DNA from: Halieaceae bacterium MED-G27
GTDB lineage: Bacteria; Pseudomonadota; Gammaproteobacteria; Pseudomonadales; Halieaceae
Reading direction: 5' to 3'
DNA length: 34,910 bases
Assembly (NCBI GenBank): GCA_002456975.1
Contig: NTKA01000021.1
Span: forward strand, 1-34,910
Below the pieces are notes generated by a model, which searched no databases, was not told the DNA's origin, and worked only from the letters and a program-made list of their open reading frames with translations. Each line of letters opens with the position of its first letter. Positions within the stretch are counted from its first letter, which is position 1. The translations under genes were made by a program, and so were the position numbers. This document shows, one piece after another, positions 4,616-34,910 of the stretch.

Positions 4616-5464
4616 ATGACACTCACAGTTACCCCATCGGCCGCTGCCTGTGGCGCGACCATTACTGGCGTCGACCTCACCCAAAAACTGTCGGATGACT
4701 TGGTTGCCGAGGTCAGAGCGCATTGGCTTGAACACAAGGTTGTTGCCTTCCCAAATCAACCCCTTGCCCCCGAAGACCTAGAACGTTTCGCCACGTATTT
4801 TGGCGACATTGGTGAAGATCCATTTTTTGACCATATCGAGGACTATCCCAATATCTGCGCGATCCAGCGAAATGCCGATGAAAAGACCACGATTTTTGCT
4901 GAGTTCTTCCATACCGACTGGAGCTTTATGGCCGTGCCCCCTGCAGGAACAGCGCTGTTTGGTATCACCATCCCACCAGAAGGGGGTGACACGCTATTCG
5001 CAGACCAGGTGAAGGCCTTCGAAGAAATGCCCGATGACCTGCGCGAAAAATTTGAGAATCTGACCGCGATTCACTCCGCTGCACTCGGCTACGCGCCTGA
5101 TGGCGCCTACGGCGAAGAGGATCAAAAGCAGGGCCGAAGCATGGTGATAAAGCCCAGCGAGAAAGCTAGGGAGACTTGCGAGCATCCACTGGTCCGCACT
5201 CACCACGAGACTGGAAAACAGGCGCTATTCTCCTCAGTTGCTTACATCAAAGGTTTTGATGGCTACTCAACCGAAGAGGCCAATGCCCTGTTAGGCGAGC
5301 TGTATATGTACCAAACACAGGAACAATTTGTTTACCGCCACAAGTGGGAGAAAGACATGCTGGTGATGTGGGACAACCGATCGCTACTTCACGCGGCAAC
5401 CGGCGGCTACGATGGTTACGACCGACTGCTTCATCGCGTCACAATCGCCGATACACAGTGGTAA
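4616..5464 (+). CDS. TauD/TfdA family Fe(II)/2-oxoglutarate dioxygenase
   Basis: A 282-residue non-haem iron oxygenase of the TauD/TfdA type. The facial triad is His99, Asp101 (FFHTDW) and His259 (NRSLLHAA), and Arg274 in LLHRVTI is positioned to bind the 2-oxoglutarate carboxylate. These positions match E. coli TauD (99, 101, 255, 270) closely. Family members couple 2-oxoglutarate decarboxylation to hydroxylation of a substrate, often next to a sulfonate, ether or phosphonate group, releasing an aldehyde or alcohol. The TauD substrate cannot be assumed here because the genes around it are for CoA and glutathione chemistry, not sulfonate transport. An AAAGGA site precedes the ATG. The gap from the previous gene is 54 bases, all in the same direction. 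Confidence 0.92.
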   Translation: MTLTVTPSAAACGATITGVDLTQKLSDDLVAEVRAHWLEHKVVAFPNQPLAPEDLERFATYFGDIGEDPFFDHIEDYPNICAIQRNADEKTTIFAEFFHTDWSFMAVPPAGTALFGITIPPEGGDTLFADQVKAFEEMPDDLREKFENLTAIHSAALGYAPDGAYGEEDQKQGRSMVIKPSEKARETCEHPLVRTHHETGKQALFSSVAYIKGFDGYSTEEANALLGELYMYQTQEQFVYRHKWEKDMLVMWDNRSLLHAATGGYDGYDRLLHRVTIADTQW

Positions 5465-24006: not shown

Positions 24007-26175
24007 ATGGCTAAACCGTATTCAGAGCCACCAGCCGTCATCGTGTCCGATTCGTCATCACAAATTCAGTCTTGGTACCAAATAGACTCTGAGCTCGCCA
24101 GTGTCATTCTAGACTGCCGGCAAGGTGTGCCATCGCTGCTTTACTACGGTGCACGCTTAGCAGCTATCGGCGAACACGGGCTGGCTTCGTTTGATCGACA
24201 CGAAGCGCCAGCATCTCCCGAGAAAGAGCCCACCATAGCACTGCTGCCCGATGTGACGTCTGGCTTTTTGGGCAATCTCGGACTAGCCGCAGACACCGCC
24301 GAGGGCTGGCAGATTCATCCGCGGTTGACGTCGGCCGAGCTCACGGAAAGCGGGTTATGCCTCGTTGCTCACTGCTCGACAACCGGCCTGCGAGTGACCT
24401 ATGAACTAGCCCTCGATCAGACAACCGGGGTGTTGAAACTCCAATGCGCGGTGGCCAATACCAGCGAAGCTCGGCTGTCTTTGCACCAGTGCGCTATTAC
24501 CCAAGCTCTGCCTCAGCACGTTGAGCGGGTCCTTGGTTTTGAAGGTCGTTGGGGCCTCGAGTTTCGGCAACACAACCACTCGATTAGCACCGGGACTTAC
24601 CTTAGAGAAAACCGCAACGGCCGGAGTTCGCATCATTGCCCGCCCGCGCTCATGGTAACCACCGATCACTGCACCGAGAGCACAGGCGAGATCATTGCTT
24701 TTCATCTAGGCTGGAGCGGCAACCATCAGATGCGAGTAGAGCAACTCGCGAATGGACGCCGCTATGCACAGCTCGGTGAGCGTTTCGAACCACTCGAACT
24801 TATTCTTGAGCCAGGGCAAAGCTATCAGTCACCACCGGTCTATTCTGTCCACAGCAGTCAAGAACTGAACGCCTCTCGTCAGCGCTGGCACGCCTTCGTG
24901 CGAAATGCTTTCGATGCCGTCGCGGCCATGGCCACCAGGCCGCGGCCTGTGCAGATTAATACCTGGGAGGCTCGCTACTTCGACATCGACGAGAGCAATG
25001 TTATTGCGTTGATTGAAAAAGCCGGGGGGCTCGGTATCGAACGTTTTGTTCTCGACGACGGCTGGTTCGCCAGCCGTAACGACGATCGCTCGTCATTGGG
25101 TGACTGGTGGGTCGATAAAGATAAATTCCCCAATGGACTCAGTCCAATAATTGATACCTGTCATCGGCACAACATGACGTTCGGACTGTGGGTCGAGCCC
25201 GAGATGGTGAGTCCCGATAGCGAGCTCTACAGAGCGCACCCTAACTGGGTGCTACAGCACAAAAACCAGGAACCGATCCTCGCGCGACATCAACAAGTGC
25301 TCGATCTCAGCCAAGCTGAGGTGTTTGATTATTTATTGAATGCGGTCACAAAACTGCTCACAGAAAACGATATCGCCTATCTCAAATGGGATATGAACCG
25401 TGATCTGCATCAGGCCGGTACGCATGCGGGTGCCCATGCCCATCACCGGCAGACCAGGGCTGTCTATCGGCTAATGGCCCAGGTCAAGTCAGCTTTCCCA
25501 AACGTTGAGATCGAAAGCTGCGCATCGGGCGGGGGACGGGTCGACAGCGGTGTCCTGAATTATGTGAGCCGCTTCTGGCCCAGTGATAGCAATGATGCAC
25601 TCGACCGAATCAGTATTCAGTACGGCGTTTCATCGCTGATTCCAGCCGAAACTATGGGCTGTCATATCGGACCTGAAGAGTGCCACCTCACCGGACGACG
25701 CCACTCGATTGCCTTTCGAGGCGGTGTTGCTTTTTGGGGGCATCTCGGCATCGAAATGGATATCTCGTCGCTGTCCGAGATTGATCAGACATCGCTGGCA
25801 TCACTGATAGAGCTCCACAAATACCACCGCGGCCTACTCCACTCCGGCGATAGCCTGCGCATTGATCGCTGTGATAGCGACAGTGCCTGGGGCGTGGTCA
25901 CACCCAACGGTCTCGAAGGACTGTTCGCGCTAGCAAAACTCAAAAGCGACACAACAGTCTTCCCAGCACCCTATCGCTTTCTCGGTCTGCGAGCGGACAG
26001 CGACTACCGACTAAGCCTAATCTGGCAATCGGACCGATCCCGCCACATTAAAGCGCATCAAGAAATGATTGAGGCTGCGACCTTCAGGGGCGACTTCCTA
26101 ATGGAGGCTGGACTCACCCTCCCCATTATGAAACCTGAAAGCATTCTGATTTATCACTTGGCTGCTGTTGATTAG
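24007..26175 (+). CDS. GH36 alpha-galactosidase
   Basis: A 722-residue glycoside hydrolase of family GH36. The N-terminal beta-sandwich covers about 1-310. The TIM barrel begins with QINTWEARYFD and LDDGWFASRNDD. The nucleophile is Asp462 in YLKWDMNR, and the acid/base is Asp527 in SRFWPSDSND; the 65-residue spacing matches bacterial GH36 enzymes. ESCASGGGR at about 503-511 is the conserved substrate loop. There is no signal peptide, so it acts on imported alpha-galactosides such as melibiose-type sugars, galactosylglycerol (floridoside) or galactolipid head groups. It converges on a symporter gene with a stop-codon overlap, and a second symporter operon lies beyond. No clear Shine-Dalgarno sequence is visible. 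The precise substrate is open. Confidence 0.95.
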   Translation: MAKPYSEPPAVIVSDSSSQIQSWYQIDSELASVILDCRQGVPSLLYYGARLAAIGEHGLASFDRHEAPASPEKEPTIALLPDVTSGFLGNLGLAADTAEGWQIHPRLTSAELTESGLCLVAHCSTTGLRVTYELALDQTTGVLKLQCAVANTSEARLSLHQCAITQALPQHVERVLGFEGRWGLEFRQHNHSISTGTYLRENRNGRSSHHCPPALMVTTDHCTESTGEIIAFHLGWSGNHQMRVEQLANGRRYAQLGERFEPLELILEPGQSYQSPPVYSVHSSQELNASRQRWHAFVRNAFDAVAAMATRPRPVQINTWEARYFDIDESNVIALIEKAGGLGIERFVLDDGWFASRNDDRSSLGDWWVDKDKFPNGLSPIIDTCHRHNMTFGLWVEPEMVSPDSELYRAHPNWVLQHKNQEPILARHQQVLDLSQAEVFDYLLNAVTKLLTENDIAYLKWDMNRDLHQAGTHAGAHAHHRQTRAVYRLMAQVKSAFPNVEIESCASGGGRVDSGVLNYVSRFWPSDSNDALDRISIQYGVSSLIPAETMGCHIGPEECHLTGRRHSIAFRGGVAFWGHLGIEMDISSLSEIDQTSLASLIELHKYHRGLLHSGDSLRIDRCDSDSAWGVVTPNGLEGLFALAKLKSDTTVFPAPYRFLGLRADSDYRLSLIWQSDRSRHIKAHQEMIEAATFRGDFLMEAGLTLPIMKPESILIYHLAAVD

Positions 26176-27611
26176 TTGAGCTGAATCGCTGGCGACCATT
26201 GAGGCTTGGTGCGATACACCCAGCGACTCACCAGCAGAGCAGAGCCCACGCAGAAAATCACCGTAAAGAACATCATGTGGATGTAGTGGAAAGGCGCCCA
26301 GACAAACGAGAAGTAGCCATATGACAGCACACCCAAAACGACTGCCATGATGGCAGCGCCCGCTGCGACATCACGGAACAGGAGACCCACAATAAACGCC
26401 GATAAAATTGGCATGCTCAGCAAACCGTAGAGCTCCTGCACGAGATTGATAATGCTGTCCGCCTTTGCATAAGTCGGCACCATCGCCAGACCAACCAATA
26501 CGAATCCAATGGTGATGATCATGTTCAAGCGCCTCAGGTTGGGCGACGGCGAGATGTAAGGTTCGTGAATATCACAGACATACAGCGCTGTTGATGAATT
26601 GAGAACGCTATTAACGCTGGTCAGTACAGCCGCAGCGATAGCCGCGGCAAACGCGCCCGACAACCAAAGTGGCAGGACATCGCCAACGATTTGCCCAAAG
26701 GCGGCATCACCGATATCGCCATACAGCTTGTAGGAGACAATCCCCGGAATAACCACCAGCGGGGGGATGATAAGGAAGCGGATCGCAGCCGCCGCGAGCA
26801 CACCCTTCTGCCCTTCTTCGACCGTCGGTGATGCCATCGCACGCTGGGTGATGGTCTGGTTAGTCCCCCAGTAGAAAATCTGAATGAACAGCATACCCGT
26901 GAGCAGCGTGTGCCACGGAATAGGTGAGTCATTGCTACCAATCATGGTCAGACGCTCCGCCGGAATGCCCGAAAAGTCGAAGTCGATAGCCGCCAACGAT
27001 AAGAGCACCACCACGACACCGAGCGACAGCAGCAAGACTCCACTGTAGGCATCAGAAATTGCCACAGCTCGCAGTCCACCGAGGACGGCATAGGCGGCAC
27101 CAAGTACGGCAAATCCCGAGGCAATCAGCAGGATAGGTAACTCGACCTGAAACATTGTTTGAATAAACAGTGAGCCGCTGTAGAGCATGGTTGGGATAAA
27201 GATAAACAGATTACCCAGCAGAAAAAGAAGCCCGATTAACGCCCGGATCCTGCCATCGTTATACCGCTTCTCGAGAAGCTCGGTAGTCGTAGTGCAGTCG
27301 TAGCGGTAGTACACCGGCAGAATCACCTTTGCGAGGATAATCAAACCCACCACAGCGGCGAGCTCCCACCAAGCGAGTAGAGCCATCTGATTGCCATTCA
27401 TACCAACGAGCTGATCGGTGCTCAAATTAGTCAGTGTGATAGAGCCAGCTACCACGATCCAACTGAGCCCGCGCCCAGCGAGAAACACATCGTCTCGACT
27501 CGCCATCAGGCTGCGATCACCGATATCGCGGACGCAGCGTCGATACGTGAGCCATGCGATCAATGCGGTAATCGCAACAAAAACGAACACTTGTAAGGTT
27601 TGAATCGGCAT
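26172..27611 (-). CDS. Sodium:solute symporter (SSS family), probable sugar uptake
   Basis: A 479-residue transporter with about 13 hydrophobic segments. It has the SSS landmarks FLAGRGLSWIVVAGS, LTNLSTDQLVGMNG, IPTMLYSGSLF, YAVLGGLRAVAISD and the FYWGTNQTITQRAMA stretch of SglT-like sugar carriers. Paired Ser/Thr residues near GLRAVAISD could form the sodium site (family knowledge). The frame is open 17 codons further up to 27662, but MPIQTLQVFVFVA from 27611 looks like the natural first membrane segment. The ribosome binding site is weak. Its stop codon overlaps that of the alpha-galactosidase in the four bases TTAG. It is a paralogue of the divergent symporter at 27681 and probably imports a different but related glycoside. 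Confidence 0.92.
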   Translation of the reverse strand: MPIQTLQVFVFVAITALIAWLTYRRCVRDIGDRSLMASRDDVFLAGRGLSWIVVAGSITLTNLSTDQLVGMNGNQMALLAWWELAAVVGLIILAKVILPVYYRYDCTTTTELLEKRYNDGRIRALIGLLFLLGNLFIFIPTMLYSGSLFIQTMFQVELPILLIASGFAVLGAAYAVLGGLRAVAISDAYSGVLLLSLGVVVVLLSLAAIDFDFSGIPAERLTMIGSNDSPIPWHTLLTGMLFIQIFYWGTNQTITQRAMASPTVEEGQKGVLAAAAIRFLIIPPLVVIPGIVSYKLYGDIGDAAFGQIVGDVLPLWLSGAFAAAIAAAVLTSVNSVLNSSTALYVCDIHEPYISPSPNLRRLNMIITIGFVLVGLAMVPTYAKADSIINLVQELYGLLSMPILSAFIVGLLFRDVAAGAAIMAVVLGVLSYGYFSFVWAPFHYIHMMFFTVIFCVGSALLVSRWVYRTKPQWSPAIQLN

Positions 27612-27680
27612 AGTGCGCCTGCCCCGCTCACTTCTTTTCCCAGAGGCCTGAGAGCCTAGCACCTTCTAAAAAGTCGCGGA

Positions 27681-29459
27681 ATGTTGCCGCTTGAAGGCTG
27701 GCCTCTTATGCTGGACGGCCACTCGGATGTGATGTTTATGTCTGCTGACCAATTAATTTTTGTGCTACTCAGTTGCGCGGGCTTTATGTTGGCTGTCGCC
27801 TGGTTTGCCTATCAGCGCACCAAAGACAGCGTAAATAACGCCGACGGCTACTTCTTGGCCGGCCGAGGACTCACCGCACCCTTTATCGCTGGCTCGCTGT
27901 TACTCACCAACTTATCGGCCGAGCAACTCATTGGCCTGAACGGCTCCGCCTACGGTTTCAACATGAGCGCCATGGGTTGGGAGGTCACCGCCGCCGTTGC
28001 CACGATCGCTATGGCGTTCTTCTTCCTGCCGCGTTACTTGCGTGGAGCTTTTACTACCCTTCCTCAGTTTCTCGCCGATCGCTTCGATGACGACGTCAGG
28101 CGCATCAGTGTCGTTCTGTTTTTGCTCGGTTATGGCTTGGTAACTATCCCCAGCGTGCTCTATTCAGGTTCGGTCGCGGTGCTAAAAATCTTCGATGTGC
28201 CAATGCTAACCGGTTGGAGCTATGTCGGATCGCTATGGTTTACCGTGACGGTGATCACCGTGGTGGGATCGCTCTATGCGGTGCTGGGAGGCCTCAAGGC
28301 AGTTGCTGTCTCCGATACGCTAAACGGTGTAGGGCTTCTTGTGATTGGCATTGCGGTGCCGGTGCTCGGCCTGCAACTGCTTGGCAACGGTGACTTTGCT
28401 CTCGGATTATCGACACTGAGCAGTTCTCATCAGGAAAAGCTCAATGCCATAGGCTCGAGTAACGACCCCACGCCGTTCGCGACACTGTTTACCGGCATGG
28501 TATTCGCGAATCTTTTTTACTGGTGCTCGAATCAATACGTCATCCAGCGGACCCTGGCAGCGCGGAGCTTGGCGGAGGGTCAGCAGGGCGTGCTGCTCTC
28601 GGGCTTTTTCAAAGTGTTGGTGCCGTTTTTCATGATGATTCCCGGCGTCATTGCCTATCATCTCTATGGGCCGGAGCTCGCCTCGATCGACCTCGCCTAC
28701 CCACAGCTCGCACGAGACACCCTGCCACTATGGGCGATGGGCTTCTTTCTCGCAGTGCTACTTGGTGCTGTTTTCAGCTCCTTCAACTCGCTGATCAACA
28801 GTGCTGCGACCATGTTTACGCTCGATGTGATCGAGCCCCTGCGTGAGGCCAAACTGTCGGAAGCCGCACTCGTTCGCACGGCGAAGTGGGTCAGTGTCGG
28901 CATCGCGGTCGTGTCTCTCGGCATAGCGCCGCTTCTGCAGTTCGCACCCGAAGGGTTGTGGCAGATCATCCGCATCTTTACCGGCTTCTACAATATCCCG
29001 ATCATCGCCGTCGTAATCATCGGCATGCTCACCTCTTGGGTTCCAGCGCGGGCGGTTAAGGTCGCCATTGGTTTCCATATTGTCGCTTATGGACTATTTC
29101 AGTTTGTCTTTAAATCAGCGATCGATATTCACTTCCTGCATCTCTATGCGATCTTATTCGTGATCGAAATCGTGCTCATGCTCAGCATCGGCTGGCTAAA
29201 ACCGCGAGAAGCCAAGGGAACTAGCGACGATCAGTCAAAGATCGATATGACACCATGGCCACATGCCATCGCCTGCTCGGTCACATTATTTAGTTGTGTG
29301 ATTGCTCTCTATGCCCTGTTCTCACCCATGGGGTTAGCCGGCAACTCGGGCTGGACTGGTGTTTCGTGGTTACTACTGGCGCTCGTCACGGCTAATGTCG
29401 GCACCTGGTTGTTGTCGTTTAGACAGGCGCCAGCACCTCAACTTCGAGCACAAGGCTAA
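27681..29459 (+). CDS. Sodium:solute symporter (SSS family), first gene of the sugar operon
   Basis: A transporter of up to 592 residues with about 14 hydrophobic segments. It shares blocks with its divergent neighbour: FLAGRGLTAPFIAGS, LTNLSAEQLIGLNG, IPSVLYSGS, YAVLGGLKAVAVSD and FYWCSNQYVIQR. It is longer at the C-terminus, with extra membrane segments after about residue 520. The start is uncertain: ATG at 27681 is used here, but ATGs at 27708 (GAAGG ten bases upstream) and 27738 (MSADQLIFVLL) are possible. The next gene begins two bases after its stop, so it leads an operon with a Gfo/Idh/MocA enzyme, an aldo/keto reductase and a dioxygenase. It likely imports the substrate for those three enzymes (inference). 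Confidence 0.92.
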   Translation: MLPLEGWPLMLDGHSDVMFMSADQLIFVLLSCAGFMLAVAWFAYQRTKDSVNNADGYFLAGRGLTAPFIAGSLLLTNLSAEQLIGLNGSAYGFNMSAMGWEVTAAVATIAMAFFFLPRYLRGAFTTLPQFLADRFDDDVRRISVVLFLLGYGLVTIPSVLYSGSVAVLKIFDVPMLTGWSYVGSLWFTVTVITVVGSLYAVLGGLKAVAVSDTLNGVGLLVIGIAVPVLGLQLLGNGDFALGLSTLSSSHQEKLNAIGSSNDPTPFATLFTGMVFANLFYWCSNQYVIQRTLAARSLAEGQQGVLLSGFFKVLVPFFMMIPGVIAYHLYGPELASIDLAYPQLARDTLPLWAMGFFLAVLLGAVFSSFNSLINSAATMFTLDVIEPLREAKLSEAALVRTAKWVSVGIAVVSLGIAPLLQFAPEGLWQIIRIFTGFYNIPIIAVVIIGMLTSWVPARAVKVAIGFHIVAYGLFQFVFKSAIDIHFLHLYAILFVIEIVLMLSIGWLKPREAKGTSDDQSKIDMTPWPHAIACSVTLFSCVIALYALFSPMGLAGNSGWTGVSWLLLALVTANVGTWLLSFRQAPAPQLRAQG

Positions 29460-29461
29460 GC

Positions 29462-30691
29462 GTGATGAGCACCCACCCCTATCAAGTGGTTATCGATGAC
29501 AATGTCCGGGACATCCAAGCGCCGATGCCGGCTGGATCGACGAAGCCGCGCTTCGGCTTTATCGGCACTGGCATGATGGGTTGCGAGCACATCCACGTGA
29601 CCTTGAGCTTGGGTCGCGCCGAGATCGCCGCGATACATGATCCACATCAGCCGAGTTTGGACTTAGCCAACTGGGTTCTCGACAAGCACGACGCGCCGCA
29701 ACCCACGATCCATGAATCGATCGACACGCTCTGCGCAGATGAGTCTCTGGACGCCATCTTTATTTGCACGCCAAATTTCACCCACCGCGAGGTATTCGAT
29801 CGGGTGATTGTGTCGGGCAAGCCCATTTTTCTGGAAAAGCCCATGGCGACTACGCTGGACGACGCTATTTATATTGCGAACGTCGCGAGCAGCTACCCAA
29901 GTGTCATTCAGCTTGGCATGCAATACCGCTACAAGGCCCAATACCTTCTGGCGCAAACCGCCCTCGAAGCCGGTGATCTGGGTGAGGTTAAGACGGTTAG
30001 CATGAGCGAGTATCGACCGCCCTTTTTAGGGAAGGTCGATGAATGGAATAAATTTACCGCCTACTCGGGCGGCACTCTGGTCGAGAAGTGCTGTCACTAC
30101 TTCGACCTGATTAACCGGGTAGCCCAATCGACACCAAAGCGGGTTTTTGCGAGCGGCGGTCAGGCCGTTAATTTTCTCGACTTTGAACACAACGACAAAC
30201 GCTCTGATATCGATGACCACGCCCTGGTCATTGTCGAGTACGACAATGGAGTTCGTGGTCAATTTGCACTGAATATGTTTTCCGAGGAGCTCTACGAAGA
30301 ACTCGTTGTCGGCGGCAGCCGCGGGCGGCTCCATGCCTGGGAAAATGCAAGCTTTAAGCCCGGAAAACCCTCCAGCGCCCGGATAAAAGTCGAGGTGCCC
30401 GACCATCCGGCCTACGAGGCGACTGCCTGCGACTATCCGGAAAGCATCGAGCGCACGGGGCACTACGGCTCTACCATGTTCGAGCACGATCGCTTTATTA
30501 GCGCCTTGCGCGGGGAGAGCTCGGACGCTGCCACAGCGAGCGAGGGTCTCTGGGCTATTATCACAGCATGGATGGCACAGCGATCGATCGAAACGCGAGA
30601 GGTCGTTGACGTTCGACAAGCCCTCGTCGATGTGAATTGCGATCCCTTTCAACCTCATTTGATGCCAGAGAGTCTGGCAAATAGGAAATAA
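29462..30691 (+). CDS. Gfo/Idh/MocA family oxidoreductase
   Basis: A 409-residue NAD(P)-dependent enzyme. The nucleotide-binding motif GFIGTGMMG is at 32-40 and the catalytic EKP at 125-127. The second domain carries GGTLVEKCCHYFDL, with Lys209 and His212 positioned in the active site. Members oxidise sugars, inositols or amino sugars, and some use a transient NAD oxidation to cleave glycosidic bonds (GH109, GH188 and similar). GTG at 29462 and ATG at 29465 are adjacent starts; AAGG at 29452-29455 can serve either. It follows the symporter by two bases and precedes the aldo/keto reductase by five, so co-translation is likely. A first-step role on an imported glycoside is plausible. The substrate is unknown. 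Confidence 0.93.
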   Translation: MMSTHPYQVVIDDNVRDIQAPMPAGSTKPRFGFIGTGMMGCEHIHVTLSLGRAEIAAIHDPHQPSLDLANWVLDKHDAPQPTIHESIDTLCADESLDAIFICTPNFTHREVFDRVIVSGKPIFLEKPMATTLDDAIYIANVASSYPSVIQLGMQYRYKAQYLLAQTALEAGDLGEVKTVSMSEYRPPFLGKVDEWNKFTAYSGGTLVEKCCHYFDLINRVAQSTPKRVFASGGQAVNFLDFEHNDKRSDIDDHALVIVEYDNGVRGQFALNMFSEELYEELVVGGSRGRLHAWENASFKPGKPSSARIKVEVPDHPAYEATACDYPESIERTGHYGSTMFEHDRFISALRGESSDAATASEGLWAIITAWMAQRSIETREVVDVRQALVDVNCDPFQPHLMPESLANRK

Positions 30692-30696
30692 GACTT

Positions 30697-31668
30697 ATGA
30701 CAACTTTGCTGGATGAGCTTGGCATCCCGCCGGTCGGCCTAGGCCTCTGGAAAATAGCACCGGAAGACACAGCGCCCACTGTGGTCGAGGCATTAAAAGA
30801 GGGCTATCGGCACCTCGATAGCGCCTGCGATTATGGCAACGAAACCGAAGTCGGTGCTGGGCTCGCTCAGGCCTTTGAGGCGGGCATCTGTCGTCGGGAT
30901 GAGGTTTGGGTTACCTCTAAGCTCTGGAATACCTATCATGATCCAGCCCACGTTAGAGCAGCCTGTCTTAAAACACTGTCCGACCTACAACTCGATACCC
31001 TCGACCTTTATTTAGTGCACTTTCCCATTGCGCTTAAATACGTCGATTTTGACACGCGCTATCCGCCCGAATGGCTGTACGATCCTTCGGCAGCATCACC
31101 CCAGATGGAACTGGCAGCGGTGCCACTTCACGCAACTTGGGCGGCGATGGAGTCGCTGGTTGATGAAGGCCTTGTGAAACATATCGGTGTTTGTAACTAC
31201 AGCTCGGCACTGATTCACGACCTCATGGCTTACGCGAGGATCAGGCCAGCCATGCTGCAAGTGGAGCTTCACCCTTACCTCACTCAAACCTCGCTACTTC
31301 GCACCGCGGCGCAATACGGCATCCCAGTGACCGGCTTCTCCCCGCTGGGTGCCTCTTCCTATCTCGAGCTGTCGATGGCCAGCGAACCCGAATCCGTATT
31401 GCGTGAAGGGGTAGTCGGTGACATTGCCGAGCGACACGGAAAGTCAGCTGCGCAAGTGGTATTGCGATGGGGCATACAGCGCGGCACTGCGGTGATCCCT
31501 AAATCCACCAAAGCGACTCGACGCCAGGAAAACATCGACGTGTTTGATTTCGAATTGAGTGCCGAGGACATGGCTCAACTGTCGGCTTTGGATCGAGGAC
31601 GGCGCTTTAATAATCCAGCCGACTTCTGTGAGGGAGCGTTCAATACGTTCCATGCCATCTATGAGTGA
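30697..31668 (+). CDS. Aldo/keto reductase, xylose-reductase-like
   Basis: A 323-residue AKR with the complete tetrad Asp41, Tyr46, Lys75 and His108. The segment RYPPEWLYD, the QVELHPYL block and SSYLELSMAS resemble the AKR2 xylose reductases of yeasts more than typical bacterial AKRs. SPLGAS and VIPKSTKATRRQENI give the NADP phosphate-binding pattern (Lys-Ser with downstream Arg). It should reduce an aldehyde of a sugar or small aldose with NAD(P)H. It overlaps the next gene by eight bases and starts five bases after the Gfo/Idh/MocA gene. Its place next to a dioxygenase suggests that it may reduce an aldehyde released by oxygenation (inference). Confidence 0.93.
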   Translation: MTTLLDELGIPPVGLGLWKIAPEDTAPTVVEALKEGYRHLDSACDYGNETEVGAGLAQAFEAGICRRDEVWVTSKLWNTYHDPAHVRAACLKTLSDLQLDTLDLYLVHFPIALKYVDFDTRYPPEWLYDPSAASPQMELAAVPLHATWAAMESLVDEGLVKHIGVCNYSSALIHDLMAYARIRPAMLQVELHPYLTQTSLLRTAAQYGIPVTGFSPLGASSYLELSMASEPESVLREGVVGDIAERHGKSAAQVVLRWGIQRGTAVIPKSTKATRRQENIDVFDFELSAEDMAQLSALDRGRRFNNPADFCEGAFNTFHAIYE

Positions 31669-32617
31669 TCGGTTATCTGAGCCCGCGATCGTCACGCCCG
31701 ACGACTTGGCGCTAACCCCGGGAGCTCCGCTCAAGCCCGACGCACGAGACCGCATCTCAGAAGAGCTCGCAGACTATGGCTGTGTGCTGTTTCGGGGTTT
31801 TGACCTAAGCACCGATAAGGACTTCGATGACTTCATCGGCGGTTTTGGCTTCGAGAATTTTCGTTACGATGACTCATTCTCAAATGCCGTGCGGCGAAAC
31901 CGGACCGAACGGGTATTTACTGCCAACGAAGCGCCACCTGACGTCGAAATCTACCTACATCATGAAATGGCACAGACGCTCACCTTCCCGACTCAGCTCT
32001 TTTTCTTTTGCGAGACGGCGCCCACTGAGGGTGGTGCGACACCGATCTGCCGCTCCGACCTCGTGCTCGAAGAGTTGACCGCCAGTAATCCCGACTTTGT
32101 GGACGCCCTGCGACAAAAAGGAGTGCGCTATCGCAACACCATGCCGGCAAGTGAAGATCGAGCATCAGGCCAGGGACGGACCTGGTACCAGACGCTGAGT
32201 GTCGATTCCGCCGAGGCTGCAGAACAAAAACTGACAGCGATGGGCTATCGCTACCGATGGCTCGATGATCAGGAGCTCTCGGTTCAGACCCCGCGCCTTC
32301 CGGCCATCTGCGACTTTGATGCAGGCACCGAGGTCTTCTTTAATCAGCTAGTTGCGGCCGCTGCCGGCTGGCGTGATACCGCCGACGAATCTGAGACAAG
32401 GTTAGTGTTTGGCGATGACACCCTCATCGACCCTTCAGATCTTAAGCTGATGATCGATGTCTGCTATGACTGCGTGCACGACGTTGAGTGGCAGCAAGGC
32501 GACGTCGCATTGATCGACAATCTCAAAGTCATGCACGGACGTCGGCCTTATCGGGGTAACCGGTCCGTGTTAGCCGCGCTGTGCTCGCCCAAGTCTAGGT
32601 ATGCCAGGCCAAACTAG
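31661..32617 (+). CDS. TauD/TfdA-superfamily dioxygenase, HxE iron motif
   Basis: A 318-residue Fe(II)/2-oxoglutarate-dependent oxygenase. The iron ligands appear as His100-x-Glu102 in YLHHEMAQT and His292 in KVMHGRRPY, with Arg301 for the cosubstrate. A Glu in the carboxylate position, rather than Asp, is seen in clavaminate-synthase-like and SyrP-like members and separates this protein from the HxD enzyme at 4616. The frame is open back to 31559, but ATG at 31661 overlaps the aldo/keto reductase stop by eight bases and suits translational coupling; ATG at 31652 is an alternative. It ends the operon before a hairpin at 32706-32735. The substrate is unknown; a sugar or sugar sulfonate is suggested by context only. 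Confidence 0.88.
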   Translation: MSDRLSEPAIVTPDDLALTPGAPLKPDARDRISEELADYGCVLFRGFDLSTDKDFDDFIGGFGFENFRYDDSFSNAVRRNRTERVFTANEAPPDVEIYLHHEMAQTLTFPTQLFFFCETAPTEGGATPICRSDLVLEELTASNPDFVDALRQKGVRYRNTMPASEDRASGQGRTWYQTLSVDSAEAAEQKLTAMGYRYRWLDDQELSVQTPRLPAICDFDAGTEVFFNQLVAAAAGWRDTADESETRLVFGDDTLIDPSDLKLMIDVCYDCVHDVEWQQGDVALIDNLKVMHGRRPYRGNRSVLAALCSPKSRYARPN

Positions 32618-32705
32618 CGCTGCAGCGTCACGAACTCTGTTTTATCGAGACTAGAGAACAACGAAACCTCAGTCGCTTCTGCCATAGAGATGTCAAGCAC
32701 TGCTA

Positions 32706-32750
32706 GAGGGATTGACGGACTCGGCCGTCAACCCCTTCGCTTCTTATTTT
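32706..32750 (+). terminator. Probable terminator after the dioxygenase operon
   Basis: TTGACGG (32712-32718) pairs with CCGTCAA (32725-32731) around ACTCGG. After one A-C mismatch the stem is extended by GGG (32708-32710) against CCC (32733-32735). TTCGCTTCTTATTTT follows on the plus strand. The hairpin lies 90 bases beyond the dioxygenase stop and directly after the stop of the convergent gene at 32744, so it may serve both. Confidence 0.6.
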
Positions 32751-33364
32751 GGTGCTGACTGAGGCTGATATTGGTAGTAACCCGGAAGAGGAATCATCAG
32801 GTGCGCGCCCGATGTTCCCGGGAACATGACGTAGGGGGCACCAGTGGTGAAGTCTGTTGGATAATTCGCCAATGTAGCGGGGTCTTTTGGCATCAACATG
32901 AGATGTGGCCCCGACTCGATCCACTGCCCTGGGGCGGCGTCCTCTTCATTCATTACGAAAGCCTTTGTGTTGTCTTCGCCCACATCGCCATGAAGCATCC
33001 ACATAAACGTATCGCGTTCCATGTCAGGCGCTTTACCCTCCATGTATGCCGCCATCCACTTCATACCTTCACCGTCGTGACACGCTGGCATGGCTTCGTG
33101 AGCTGAAGACCAACCTGCCTCGGGGACAGGCCGCGGGTTTGCCGGCTGGCAGATCCACCCGTTGGTTCCTTCGCGCAGTACAGTTCCGTCGGATCCGATA
33201 ATCGTCGCGAAATCGCCGAGAAAGTCTGGGGCAGCCGAGCTGTACGCCTTGATTTGCCAGGCGGCCGAATTATGGTCCGTTTTCTCACCTTCCTCGTGAT
33301 GTCCAGCCGCGGCGAGTGACGCGGTGCAGGCAAGGCTTAAACATAAAGCTAATCTATTGATCAT
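32744..33364 (-). CDS. Secreted conserved protein of unknown function
   Basis: A 206-residue protein with a clear signal peptide (MINRLALCLSLACTASLAAA, cleavage before Gly-His-His). The mature part is rich in Met, His, Trp and acidic residues. Notable blocks are NGWICQPANPRP, MPACHDGEGMKWM, SGPHLMLM and PYVMFPGTSGAHLMIP. The two mature cysteines (ICQP and PACHD) could form a disulfide. I recall proteins with the same PYVM-PGT-HLMIP pattern in other proteobacteria, always annotated hypothetical; no domain name can be given. GGGAG nine bases upstream supports ATG at 33364 over the open frame to 33418. Metal or small-molecule binding in the periplasm is a guess based on composition. Confidence 0.85.
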   Translation of the reverse strand: MINRLALCLSLACTASLAAAGHHEEGEKTDHNSAAWQIKAYSSAAPDFLGDFATIIGSDGTVLREGTNGWICQPANPRPVPEAGWSSAHEAMPACHDGEGMKWMAAYMEGKAPDMERDTFMWMLHGDVGEDNTKAFVMNEEDAAPGQWIESGPHLMLMPKDPATLANYPTDFTTGAPYVMFPGTSGAHLMIPLPGYYQYQPQSAPK

Positions 33365-33528
33365 GTTGCAGAGCTCCCTTTTCTGGTTCCTGAATGGTGT
33401 CAAAAAAACTGTCATCAATACCAGCGTAGGTCATTGTGTGGATAAATCTAATTTTTGTCTTCGACTACCCAGGTTGAATTAGCAACGAGAAGTTTTTGGT
33501 GCTGGCCCGTTGACGATAAGCCCGAGTA

Positions 33529-34251
33529 TTACTTGATTCGATGCTGCGCCAAGGCTTCGTAGTAAGGCATCATTTCCTCTGCCAGTGCTCTGTTGGCCGG
33601 AGCTAACTCAGGATAGTCATTCTGAACTTGAGCAAAGCCTGTCGATTGATGAACCGAGCTGTACCAGTGCGACGCCCAAACCCCATCGCTATCGCGTGGG
33701 CCCGCCGACCACCGCGTCATCGCACCCTCAATCCATGGCACCCCCAATACTTGGCATAACTGCCTTAGACTCGTTTCTGGCGACTTCAAAATATCAGCAC
33801 CATCGATTACTACCGGTCGCGAGCCCGAAATCGCACTGATTTCCTCAAATAGTGAGTGCTCGCGCACAATGCCGATGTCTTCGGCAGTCACTACTGGCAT
33901 CTTGCTTTGGTAAGAGGCAATCACCTGCTCAGGCCGCCGAATCAAAAACACGTGCGCAAATCTTACAGACCAAGTCAGATCCACCCCGAGGGGCATGTGA
34001 TGAGTCATGTGCTTCTGATACTGAAACGGCGCATCGACCGGTGCGAGTAATTGCGCTTCAACTACTTTACGTGCGGTCGGTTGCGATGCCAAGACGGCAT
34101 CACGACAAGGATGACCGAGCCCGGTCTCGTGCAGATAACAAGCGTAAAAAGGCTCATCCACCACCGTACAATCTGGGCGCGACTCCCAGGCGCGCATCAT
34201 GGCGGTCGATATATTGCGCGGCCCAGACCAGGCTGCGATTCGAAGCGTCAC
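33529..34251 (-). CDS. Sulfotransferase-like P-loop protein
   Basis: A 240-residue protein of the sulfotransferase fold. The PAPS 5'-phosphosulfate loop appears as AAWSGPRNISTA (residues 6-17), and the 3'-phosphate motif as RRPEQVIASY with Arg106 and Ser113 seven apart. The end has SAGPRDSDGVWASHWY and VHQSTGF, seen in the small bacterial group that sits beside class IV aminotransferases. Whether it truly uses PAPS is unproven; some relatives could be phosphotransferases. The start is GTG at 34251, three bases after the aminotransferase stop, so the pair should be co-translated. The product may be a sulfated or otherwise modified amino acid or oxo acid (inference). Confidence 0.85.
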   Translation of the reverse strand: MTLRIAAWSGPRNISTAMMRAWESRPDCTVVDEPFYACYLHETGLGHPCRDAVLASQPTARKVVEAQLLAPVDAPFQYQKHMTHHMPLGVDLTWSVRFAHVFLIRRPEQVIASYQSKMPVVTAEDIGIVREHSLFEEISAISGSRPVVIDGADILKSPETSLRQLCQVLGVPWIEGAMTRWSAGPRDSDGVWASHWYSSVHQSTGFAQVQNDYPELAPANRALAEEMMPYYEALAQHRIK

Positions 34252-34254
34252 GGC

Positions 34255-34910
34255 TTAGGCCCTGCAGTTAGCGGGCTGCTCGCTCTCGGTGTGCAGTAGA
34301 TCGGCGTAAAGCGCCTGCAAACGGTTGACCATCGGTCCTCTGCTACCGGTACCAATTTGGCGTCCATCAACATCAACAACCGGGGTTAAGCCCGCGAATG
34401 TACCGGTTACAAACGCCTCATCGGCACTGTAGACCTGAGTCAGCGAGAAGTTTTTTTCATACACTGGGATGCCCGCTTGTTTACAAAGATTGATCACGTT
34501 GCGACGTGTTATGCCGTCGAGACAGAAATCACCCGTAGAAGTCCAGACTTCGCCCTCGCGCACTATAAAAAAGTGGGTCGAATTGCAGGTGGCAACTTGT
34601 CCATGGGGATCCAACATCAGGGCTTCGTCATAGCCTGCCTTGGTTGCTTGTATGCAGGCAAAAATGCAATTGAGCTTCGAGTGGCTGTTAATCCGGGGGT
34701 CCTGAACGTCGGCATACCCTCGTCGGACATGAACCGTAAATAGTCGAACACCCCGGTCGTTAAGGCTTGGATCGGGCTCCTTGTATTCCGGGATAATGAC
34801 AACGGTGGGTGGTCCGATGGTAACCCTGGGATCCTGATAGGGTGTTGACTTGATGCCGCGCGTGACCATAAGTCTGATGTGGACATGGTCAGTCATGTTG
34901 TTGGCACTGA
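34255..34910 (-). CDS. Class IV (branched-chain type) aminotransferase, 5' end outside window
   Basis: The frame is open from the window edge at 34910 to a stop at 34255. The visible part is about 218 residues of a PLP-dependent fold-type IV transaminase (IlvE / D-amino-acid aminotransferase group). HVHIRLMVTRG and the PLP lysine in INSHSKLNC (codon 34675-34677) are clear, followed by EALMLDPHGQVATCNSTHFF and GITRRNV, the cofactor phosphate contacts. Members of this group are about 280-300 residues, so some 70-80 N-terminal residues lie beyond the window; the ATG at 34896 is internal. It is upstream of, and nearly touching, the sulfotransferase-like gene. Its amino donor and acceptor are not determined. 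Confidence 0.9.
   Translation of the reverse strand, partial: SANNMTDHVHIRLMVTRGIKSTPYQDPRVTIGPPTVVIIPEYKEPDPSLNDRGVRLFTVHVRRGYADVQDPRINSHSKLNCIFACIQATKAGYDEALMLDPHGQVATCNSTHFFIVREGEVWTSTGDFCLDGITRRNVINLCKQAGIPVYEKNFSLTQVYSADEAFVTGTFAGLTPVVDVDGRQIGTGSRGPMVNRLQALYADLLHTESEQPANCRA

Follow-up and report, generated by a model that had tools for sequence, protein, structure and literature searches.

A conserved gene block in Halieaceae that probably encodes a variant of the sulfolytic sulfoquinovose dioxygenase route

Which sugar is served by a four-gene block that joins a Na+/solute symporter, a Gfo/Idh/MocA protein, an aldo/keto reductase (AKR), and an Fe(II)/2-oxoglutarate dioxygenase? The block lies at 27681 to 32617 in a 34,910-nucleotide stretch of DNA (here called the window) from Halieaceae bacterium MED-G27 (assembly GCA_002456975.1, contig NTKA01000021.1). 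A sequence-only reading had taken this set of uptake, GH188-like, dioxygenase, and aldehyde reductase functions to follow the logic of dioxygenase-type degradation of a sulfoquinovose-like sugar; the grouping of the Gfo protein with GH188, the homology of the dioxygenase, and the recurrence of the block support that logic. We consider it probable, from sequence comparison, that the block is a variant of the sulfolytic sulfoquinovose dioxygenase route (sulfo-SDO, also termed sulfo-ASDO). This reading draws on the residues and similarity of the GH188-type protein, on homology of the dioxygenase to those of clusters of the published type, on two loci (L197 and L214) in which an FlSqgA-like GH188 gene stands beside the same pair of enzymes, on YeiH and SulP genes near the dioxygenases of relatives, and on the mutual exclusion of two reductases.

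The Gfo protein (29462 to 30691, + strand; profile GFO_IDH_MocA) is called from a GTG start, with an ATG next at 29465; the block proteins were assigned to families with Pfam and NCBIfam profiles. Among the best 60 of its 72 PDB matches, the top entries are 8zn9 (E = 1e-58), 8qc2 (4e-54), and 8qc3 (2e-52), and the next, an inositol dehydrogenase, is far weaker (5e-16). The GH188 sulfoquinovosidase FlSqgA is entry 8QC2, and ArSqgA, of the same family, is 8QC3; in ArSqgA the sulfonate is contacted by R166, the amide of L170, and K172, according to passages of PMC10755693 and PMC11465081. A loop in the window protein, E-Y-R-P-P-F-L-G-K (30008 to 30034, + strand), matches this triad, its R, L, and K being encoded at 30014, 30026, and 30032; the catalytic or sugar-binding residues K107, Y136, E189, H193, and H321 are also kept in the alignment. 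Glu163 of the published GH188 numbering is one residue off here, and the adjacent E of the EHR/EYR motif is retained in the window.

Relatives of the block fall into clade A, to which the window belongs, and clade B, which holds dioxygenases of the sulfo-SDO type. In an alignment of 97 rows, all eight residues (K107, Y136, R166, L170, K172, E189, H193, and H321) are kept in the GH188-like rows of both clades, the sole gap being one position missing from a row cut at a contig end (L126); four other Gfo proteins in the same alignment (one in L182, two in L208, and one in L218) break the pattern. A hidden Markov model (HMM) of the GH188 C-terminal region, built from 43 clade-B and reference rows, gave the window protein 173 bits (E = 5e-52); other GH188-like rows outside the model scored 103 to 334 bits, and three other Gfo proteins scored 69, 30, and 18. 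PDB matches, HMM, and active-site residues thus place the protein in GH188 and apart from other Gfo proteins, as the sequence-only reading had thought possible. It shares with SqgA its family, catalytic residues, and sulfonate triad, but is only 32% identical to 8qc3 over 355 residues; identity is 32 to 33% to 8qc3 and clade B, compared with 43 to 61% for clade-A relatives. By homology and conserved residues, it is a divergent-clade, GH188-type NAD+-dependent sulfoquinovosidase, predicted to cleave sulfoquinovosides.

The dioxygenase (31661 to 32617, + strand; TauD superfamily, Pfam TauD at E = 3e-30) is nearest in sequence to PDB entries 1y0z (the plant clavaminate synthase-like protein At3g21360; E = 3e-57) and 9yut (5e-56), both of which carry an H-x-E metal motif. 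The 9yut protein is 94% identical to a Marinobacterium profundum protein, and SqoD has been characterized in the genus Marinobacterium, according to a part of a review (PMC12890257); a literature search found no paper naming PDB entries 9YUT to 9YUX. In the window the motif reads HHE (31958 to 31966, + strand), with H at 31958, E at 31964, and the third histidine at 32534. The first histidine, the glutamate, and the distal histidine are invariant in the 70 rows of clade A and the 43 of clade B, and the two clades also have a GR(S/T)W motif and distal arginines in common. The sequence-only reading was right that the motif is HxE, but not in treating it as an anomaly: it is the norm of this dioxygenase family, 9yut included. 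We rejected HxE as the mark of a different reaction, because it is kept in both clades and in At3g21360.

The window dioxygenase is a homologue of the clade-B (SqoD-type) enzymes, at about 35% identity and with HxE...H kept, yet it lies outside their branch. A loop, S-x-S-N-A-V-R (31874 to 31894, + strand), takes the place of the GGAAPR loop of sulfo-SDO dioxygenases; across the 70 clade-A rows, S, S, N, A, and R are invariant and V is 99% conserved, whereas GGAAPR occurs in the 43 clade-B rows and At3g21360. In the tree, clade B together with At3g21360 splits off at 100/100, leaving the window in clade A; the tree has long branches and doubtful joins, that of the window among them, and was used for the clade-B split and for the place of the window among its genus. 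An AlphaFold model (pLDDT 90.7, pTM 0.90) has 1y0z as its best Foldseek match (E = 8e-32, TM 0.85), TauD being matched more weakly and 9yut not among the best 50 fold matches.

Clade B includes Marinomonas, Marinobacterium, Saccharospirillum, Reinekea, Vibrio penaeicida, and others. Its neighborhoods contain TRAP transporter genes (33 of 39 loci), GH188 (34 of 39), and YeiH (7 of 39). The 7bby/7bbz type of AKR was called in 25 of the 39, and at least two more loci (L162 and L165) have it. Marinomonas ushuaiensis (L160), one of these loci, is named last in the legend to a figure in PMC10755693, where it seems to serve as the sulfo-SDO example. We took clade B as the SqoD type from the genus Marinobacterium, M. 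ushuaiensis, and SmoB synteny, the characterized SqoD sequence itself lying outside the comparison. A phylogeny placing the dioxygenase in a clade of unrelated function would have spoken against the sequence-only reading; it proved instead to be homologous to the dioxygenase of sulfo-SDO clusters of the published type, and we propose that it is a sulfoquinovose dioxygenase.

At3g21360 is the best PDB match of the window dioxygenase by both sequence and fold, but it has the clade-B loop and is nearer to sulfo-SDO dioxygenases of clade B (46 to 48% identity) than to that of the window (35%, from the fold alignment). GH188 genes are reported in plants in a section of PMC10755693; taken with the likeness of At3g21360, this makes an endogenous plant sulfoquinovose salvage conceivable.

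Conservation of the block was assessed at three levels. Across 140 family genomes, matches to the dioxygenase (threshold E = 1e-37) and to the GH188-like protein (threshold E = 1e-90) occurred together in 40, singly in 4, and not at all in 96; each of the four (G072, G081, G093, and G100) has its match close to the end of a contig, and one genome (G030) with a dioxygenase match at E = 5e-31 and 32% identity was left out. Strong dioxygenase matches occur in 42 other genomes of the family, and we compared the loci of 20 of these. In all 20 the symporter gene is directly upstream of the GH188-like gene, the dioxygenase gene is downstream of this pair in 19 by open reading frame (ORF) map and in the 20th (L076) by genome search, and an AKR gene lies between GH188 and dioxygenase in 14. 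The flanks vary in several ways, which shows that the block moves as a unit. The four-gene block, whose lack of conservation elsewhere would have refuted the sequence-only reading, recurs in many genomes, in several flanking contexts and families, and this co-occurrence argues that the arrangement is not chance.

At the order level, 65 of 390 genomes have dioxygenase matches at E = 1e-20, a count that takes in both clades and remoter proteins. Loci from named genomes were the best 80 of 466 relatives, ranked against a clade-B sequence. They include 37 clade-A loci with a called dioxygenase (L181, L206, L211, and L217, with the gene uncalled, are left out), among them Planctomycetes, a Lentisphaerae metagenome-assembled genome (MAG), and an Arenicella MAG. 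Pseudohongiella sp. O18 (L189), apparently an isolate, also has the block. An AKR gene is adjacent or one gene off in 30 of the 37, and a GH188 gene of either type lies nearby in 18 when judged by eye (the weakest, L199, at 43%) or 17 by script (at ≥43.0%). An FlSqgA-like GH188 stands beside the clade-A AKR-dioxygenase pair in L197 (Granulosicoccaceae) and L214 (Erythrobacter). These two loci connect clade A with sulfoquinovose by evidence separate from the GH188 clade of the window itself.

The AKR (30697 to 31668, + strand; profile Aldo_ket_red) sets the block apart from known clusters. Its nearest PDB entries are 5zci, an aldose reductase (E = 3e-84), and 1jez, a xylose reductase (2e-78), and it is 20% identical to the SmoB/SquF type. 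The AKR of a clade-B cluster matches 7bby at E = 3e-100; 7bby and 7bbz, whose PDB name is aryl-alcohol dehydrogenase, we take to be SmoB. The block thus carries an AKR of another subfamily in place of a SmoB/SquF-type 6-dehydroglucose reductase, and the xylose-reductase-like character noticed in the sequence-only reading is a true departure. SquF is itself an AKR (PF00248), as stated in a part of PMC9594981. We propose that the block AKR acts as a 6-dehydroglucose reductase.

This proposal can be set against the six family loci, of the 20 compared, that have no AKR gene. Five of these genomes were searched whole (two of them single-contig and one 100% complete) and gave no match to the block AKR at E = 0.001. 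A further-reaching Pfam search found other AKRs in the AKR-less genomes, including one present in all six (G060, G058, G098, G064, G091, and G057) that is 51 to 52% identical to the clade-B SmoB-type reductase; in G060 its nearest PDB entries are 7bby and 7bbz (E = 1e-119). With this type as query, the SmoB-type AKRs of AKR-less block genomes were 79 to 100% identical. Among 57 genomes of the window's genus, the block AKR occurs in 25, all with the block, and the SmoB-type AKR in 14, 12 of them with the block and two without (G068 and G092, 62% and 58% complete); none of the 57 has both, a remoter AKR of G102 being left uncounted because it is equally near YdhF-type chains and 7bby (E = 1e-43 to 1e-45). 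Fisher's exact test gives p = 1e-6 among the 43 block genomes, a significance inflated by kinship. The two reductases, unlike in sequence, are thus mutually exclusive within the genus, and their distribution suggests a sulfosugar role for the SmoB-type AKR in the sister species. Oxidation of the aldehyde to glucuronate, as an account of AKR loss, was rejected: UxaC was found in only 1 of 13 genomes (G102, which keeps the AKR), and the SmoB-type AKR was found instead.

A link to sulfur comes from the neighbors of clade-A dioxygenases. One Lentisphaerae locus (L185, 4626 to 8996) has, in order, genes for a ROK-family sugar kinase or regulator, an AKR, a YeiH-family exporter, and the dioxygenase, overlapping or nearly touching; by its family name, YeiH is a putative sulfate exporter. 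A SulP transporter gene lies near the dioxygenase in L118 to L120 and L135, of which L120 shows no AKR there. As for the window's own genome (a 2.0-Mb assembly, 75% complete), a PF01925 search returned three TauE-family proteins as generic matches; because TauE proteins occur in seven of seven genomes, two of them without the block, this search says little about sulfite disposal. A glucokinase gene is present.

Gene order, families, residues, co-occurrence, and exclusion were observed directly, and from these we infer the following reactions. The SSS symporter (27681 to 29459, + strand; SSF/PRK10484, E = 8e-205, 681.6 bits against a cutoff of 401) would import sulfoquinovose or sulfoquinovosyl glycerol; that it takes up sulfoquinovose or its glycosides is proposed from context. 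The GH188-type enzyme would free sulfoquinovose via transient oxidation at C3 with NAD+, as its homology and conserved residues suggest. Oxygenolytic cleavage of the C-S bond by the dioxygenase would yield sulfite and 6-dehydroglucose, the xylose-reductase-like AKR would reduce this aldehyde to glucose, and glucokinase would phosphorylate the product. The block very probably works like sulfo-SDO, although it lies outside the SqoD clade proper.

Several observations weigh against a sulfo-SDO-like route. The low identity of the dioxygenase clades (about 35%) and a loop that is fixed within each but differs between them mean that the substrate may differ. No GH188 gene lies within six genes in 19 of the 37 clade-A loci, and four loci (L118 to L120 and L215) have instead a YicI-type GH31 that lacks R301, W304, and Y508, with Q288 kept, residues that we take to be those of YihQ. 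As to the reductases, six block genomes have neither AKR (five are rated at less than 90% completeness, and the sixth is G081, whose block runs up to the end of its contig), and G102 has the block AKR plus the further one, 33 to 39% identical to the SmoB type, which if counted gives one genome in 57 with both. On the dioxygenase tree the six AKR-less loci group in a single clade (100/98), so the swap may have happened just once. The SmoB-type gene of the sister species adjoins glyoxalase-like and enoyl-CoA hydratase genes rather than sulfosugar genes, a setting found in most of L229 to L232, L236, and L237 (the six genomes G060, G058, G098, G064, G091, and G057). Finally, no sulfite exporter or oxidase gene lies within the block, and a PF00174 search found no Oxidored_molyb protein in the window's 75%-complete genome.

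The GH31 genes themselves, standing where GH188 would be, could encode another glycosidase or an unrecognized sulfoquinovosidase; a classical YihQ-type assignment is unsupported with those three residues missing.

These points bear on other accounts of the block. It might degrade a different sulfonated sugar or sulfoglycoside, such as sulfofucose or an unknown algal sulfosugar, its divergent GH188 and dioxygenase clades reflecting a shifted substrate. The clade-specific loop, the 32 to 33% identity of the GH188-type protein to 8qc3 and clade B, the SSS transporter in place of TRAP, and a GH36 alpha-galactosidase-like gene that adjoins the block in the window's close kin all fit this account. 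We think it rather unlikely, however, because the residues that contact sulfoquinovose in GH188 are unchanged, an FlSqgA-like GH188 accompanies the same AKR-dioxygenase pair in L197 and L214, and a SmoB-type reductase stands in for the AKR in sister species. A broader form of the idea makes all of clade A a separate sulfosugar system of marine Gammaproteobacteria, with its own substrate other than free sulfoquinovose, its own GH188 subfamily and a dioxygenase with a reshaped loop, and an AKR-dioxygenase pair extending into Planctomycetes and Lentisphaerae; this we regard as possible, if unlikely.

Accounts that dispense with sulfosugar catabolism fare worse. The main task of the dioxygenase might be to release sulfite that the cell assimilates, as TauD does with taurine, in keeping with its TauD superfamily fold and the lack of a sulfite exporter in the block. 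Obtaining sulfur alone would not call for a glycosidase or a C6-aldehyde reductase, and the YeiH gene in some relatives suggests sulfur disposal (SulP could import or export), so that sulfur scavenging as the main role seems improbable. Least credible is an oxidative route for a sugar with a non-sulfur modification, for example O-methyl removal, in which the dioxygenase would make an aldehyde, the AKR would reduce it, and the Gfo protein would be an ordinary sugar dehydrogenase. Xylose-reductase-like AKRs do reduce many aldoses, some Planctomycetes AKR-dioxygenase pairs are without GH188, and one pair (L192) follows a Gfo protein with a GFO_IDH_MocA_C2 domain. The intact sulfonate triad, the GH188-specific similarity of the Gfo protein, and the YeiH and SulP neighbors in relatives make this route very improbable, and oxidative demethylation, offered as an alternative by the sequence-only reading, found no direct support.

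The ORF calls confirm the four genes and the gaps of 2, 5, and −8 bases given by the sequence-only reading; the dioxygenase ORF opens mechanically at 31559, and it is the ATG at 31661 that yields the 8-base overlap. A scan of 26000 to 33600 found 1 promoter site (shuffled mean, 4.4) and 17 terminators (shuffled mean, 6.3), several of them within block genes; with this outcome, it is the spacing of the genes that suggests a single transcript. Upstream, outside the conserved block, lie a second, divergent SSS symporter gene (26172 to 27662, − strand) and the GH36 gene (24007 to 26175, + strand). The called symporter starts, at 27681 and 27662, are only 18 bases apart; at least one of the two genes probably begins further in. 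The divergent symporter is at the same place in seven of the 20 family loci (L061, L062, and L064 to L068) and absent there from the remaining 13, and GH36 adjoins the block in five (L061, L062, L064, L065, and L067). Outside the window's close kin neither gene flanks the block, so we rejected both as core pathway parts; the two genes (24007 to 27662) possibly serve galactosyl glycerolipid headgroups. On the other side (33529 to 34896) are a sulfotransferase-fold gene (PF19798) and a class IV aminotransferase gene, a pair that five close kin also have next to the block. Positions 4616 to 5464 encode another TauD-like protein, assigned by eye from its translation, which contains HTD; CoA-transferase-like and SDR genes lie beside it.

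Compared with the sulfo-SDO clusters of Marinobacterium aestuarii and Marinomonas ushuaiensis (SqoD plus SquF), the window's block follows the same logic of GH188, HxE dioxygenase, and AKR, with a homologous dioxygenase. It differs in its SSS rather than TRAP transporter, its divergent GH188 clade, its separate dioxygenase clade, and its reductase subfamily, and it contains no GntR regulator or YeiH gene. The route itself is known; the block is very probably a distinct, widespread version of it. A literature search, made without supplements or subscription papers, found no paper that joins sulfoquinovose and Luminiphilus, and a survey (PMC13372026) presents sulfo-SDO as a trait typical of Oceanospirillaceae and Alteromonadaceae. 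Sulfoquinovose is a sulfur-containing sugar of plants and algae, and its production is put at 10 billion tons a year in PMC10755693. If clade A performs the same chemistry, oxygenolytic sulfosugar use would reach Pseudohongiella, other ocean clades, and the genus of the window, which is probably Luminiphilus, and searches that require a SmoB-type reductase within the cluster could overlook such systems. Because the two reductases exclude each other, the role proposed for the AKR lends itself to a direct test.

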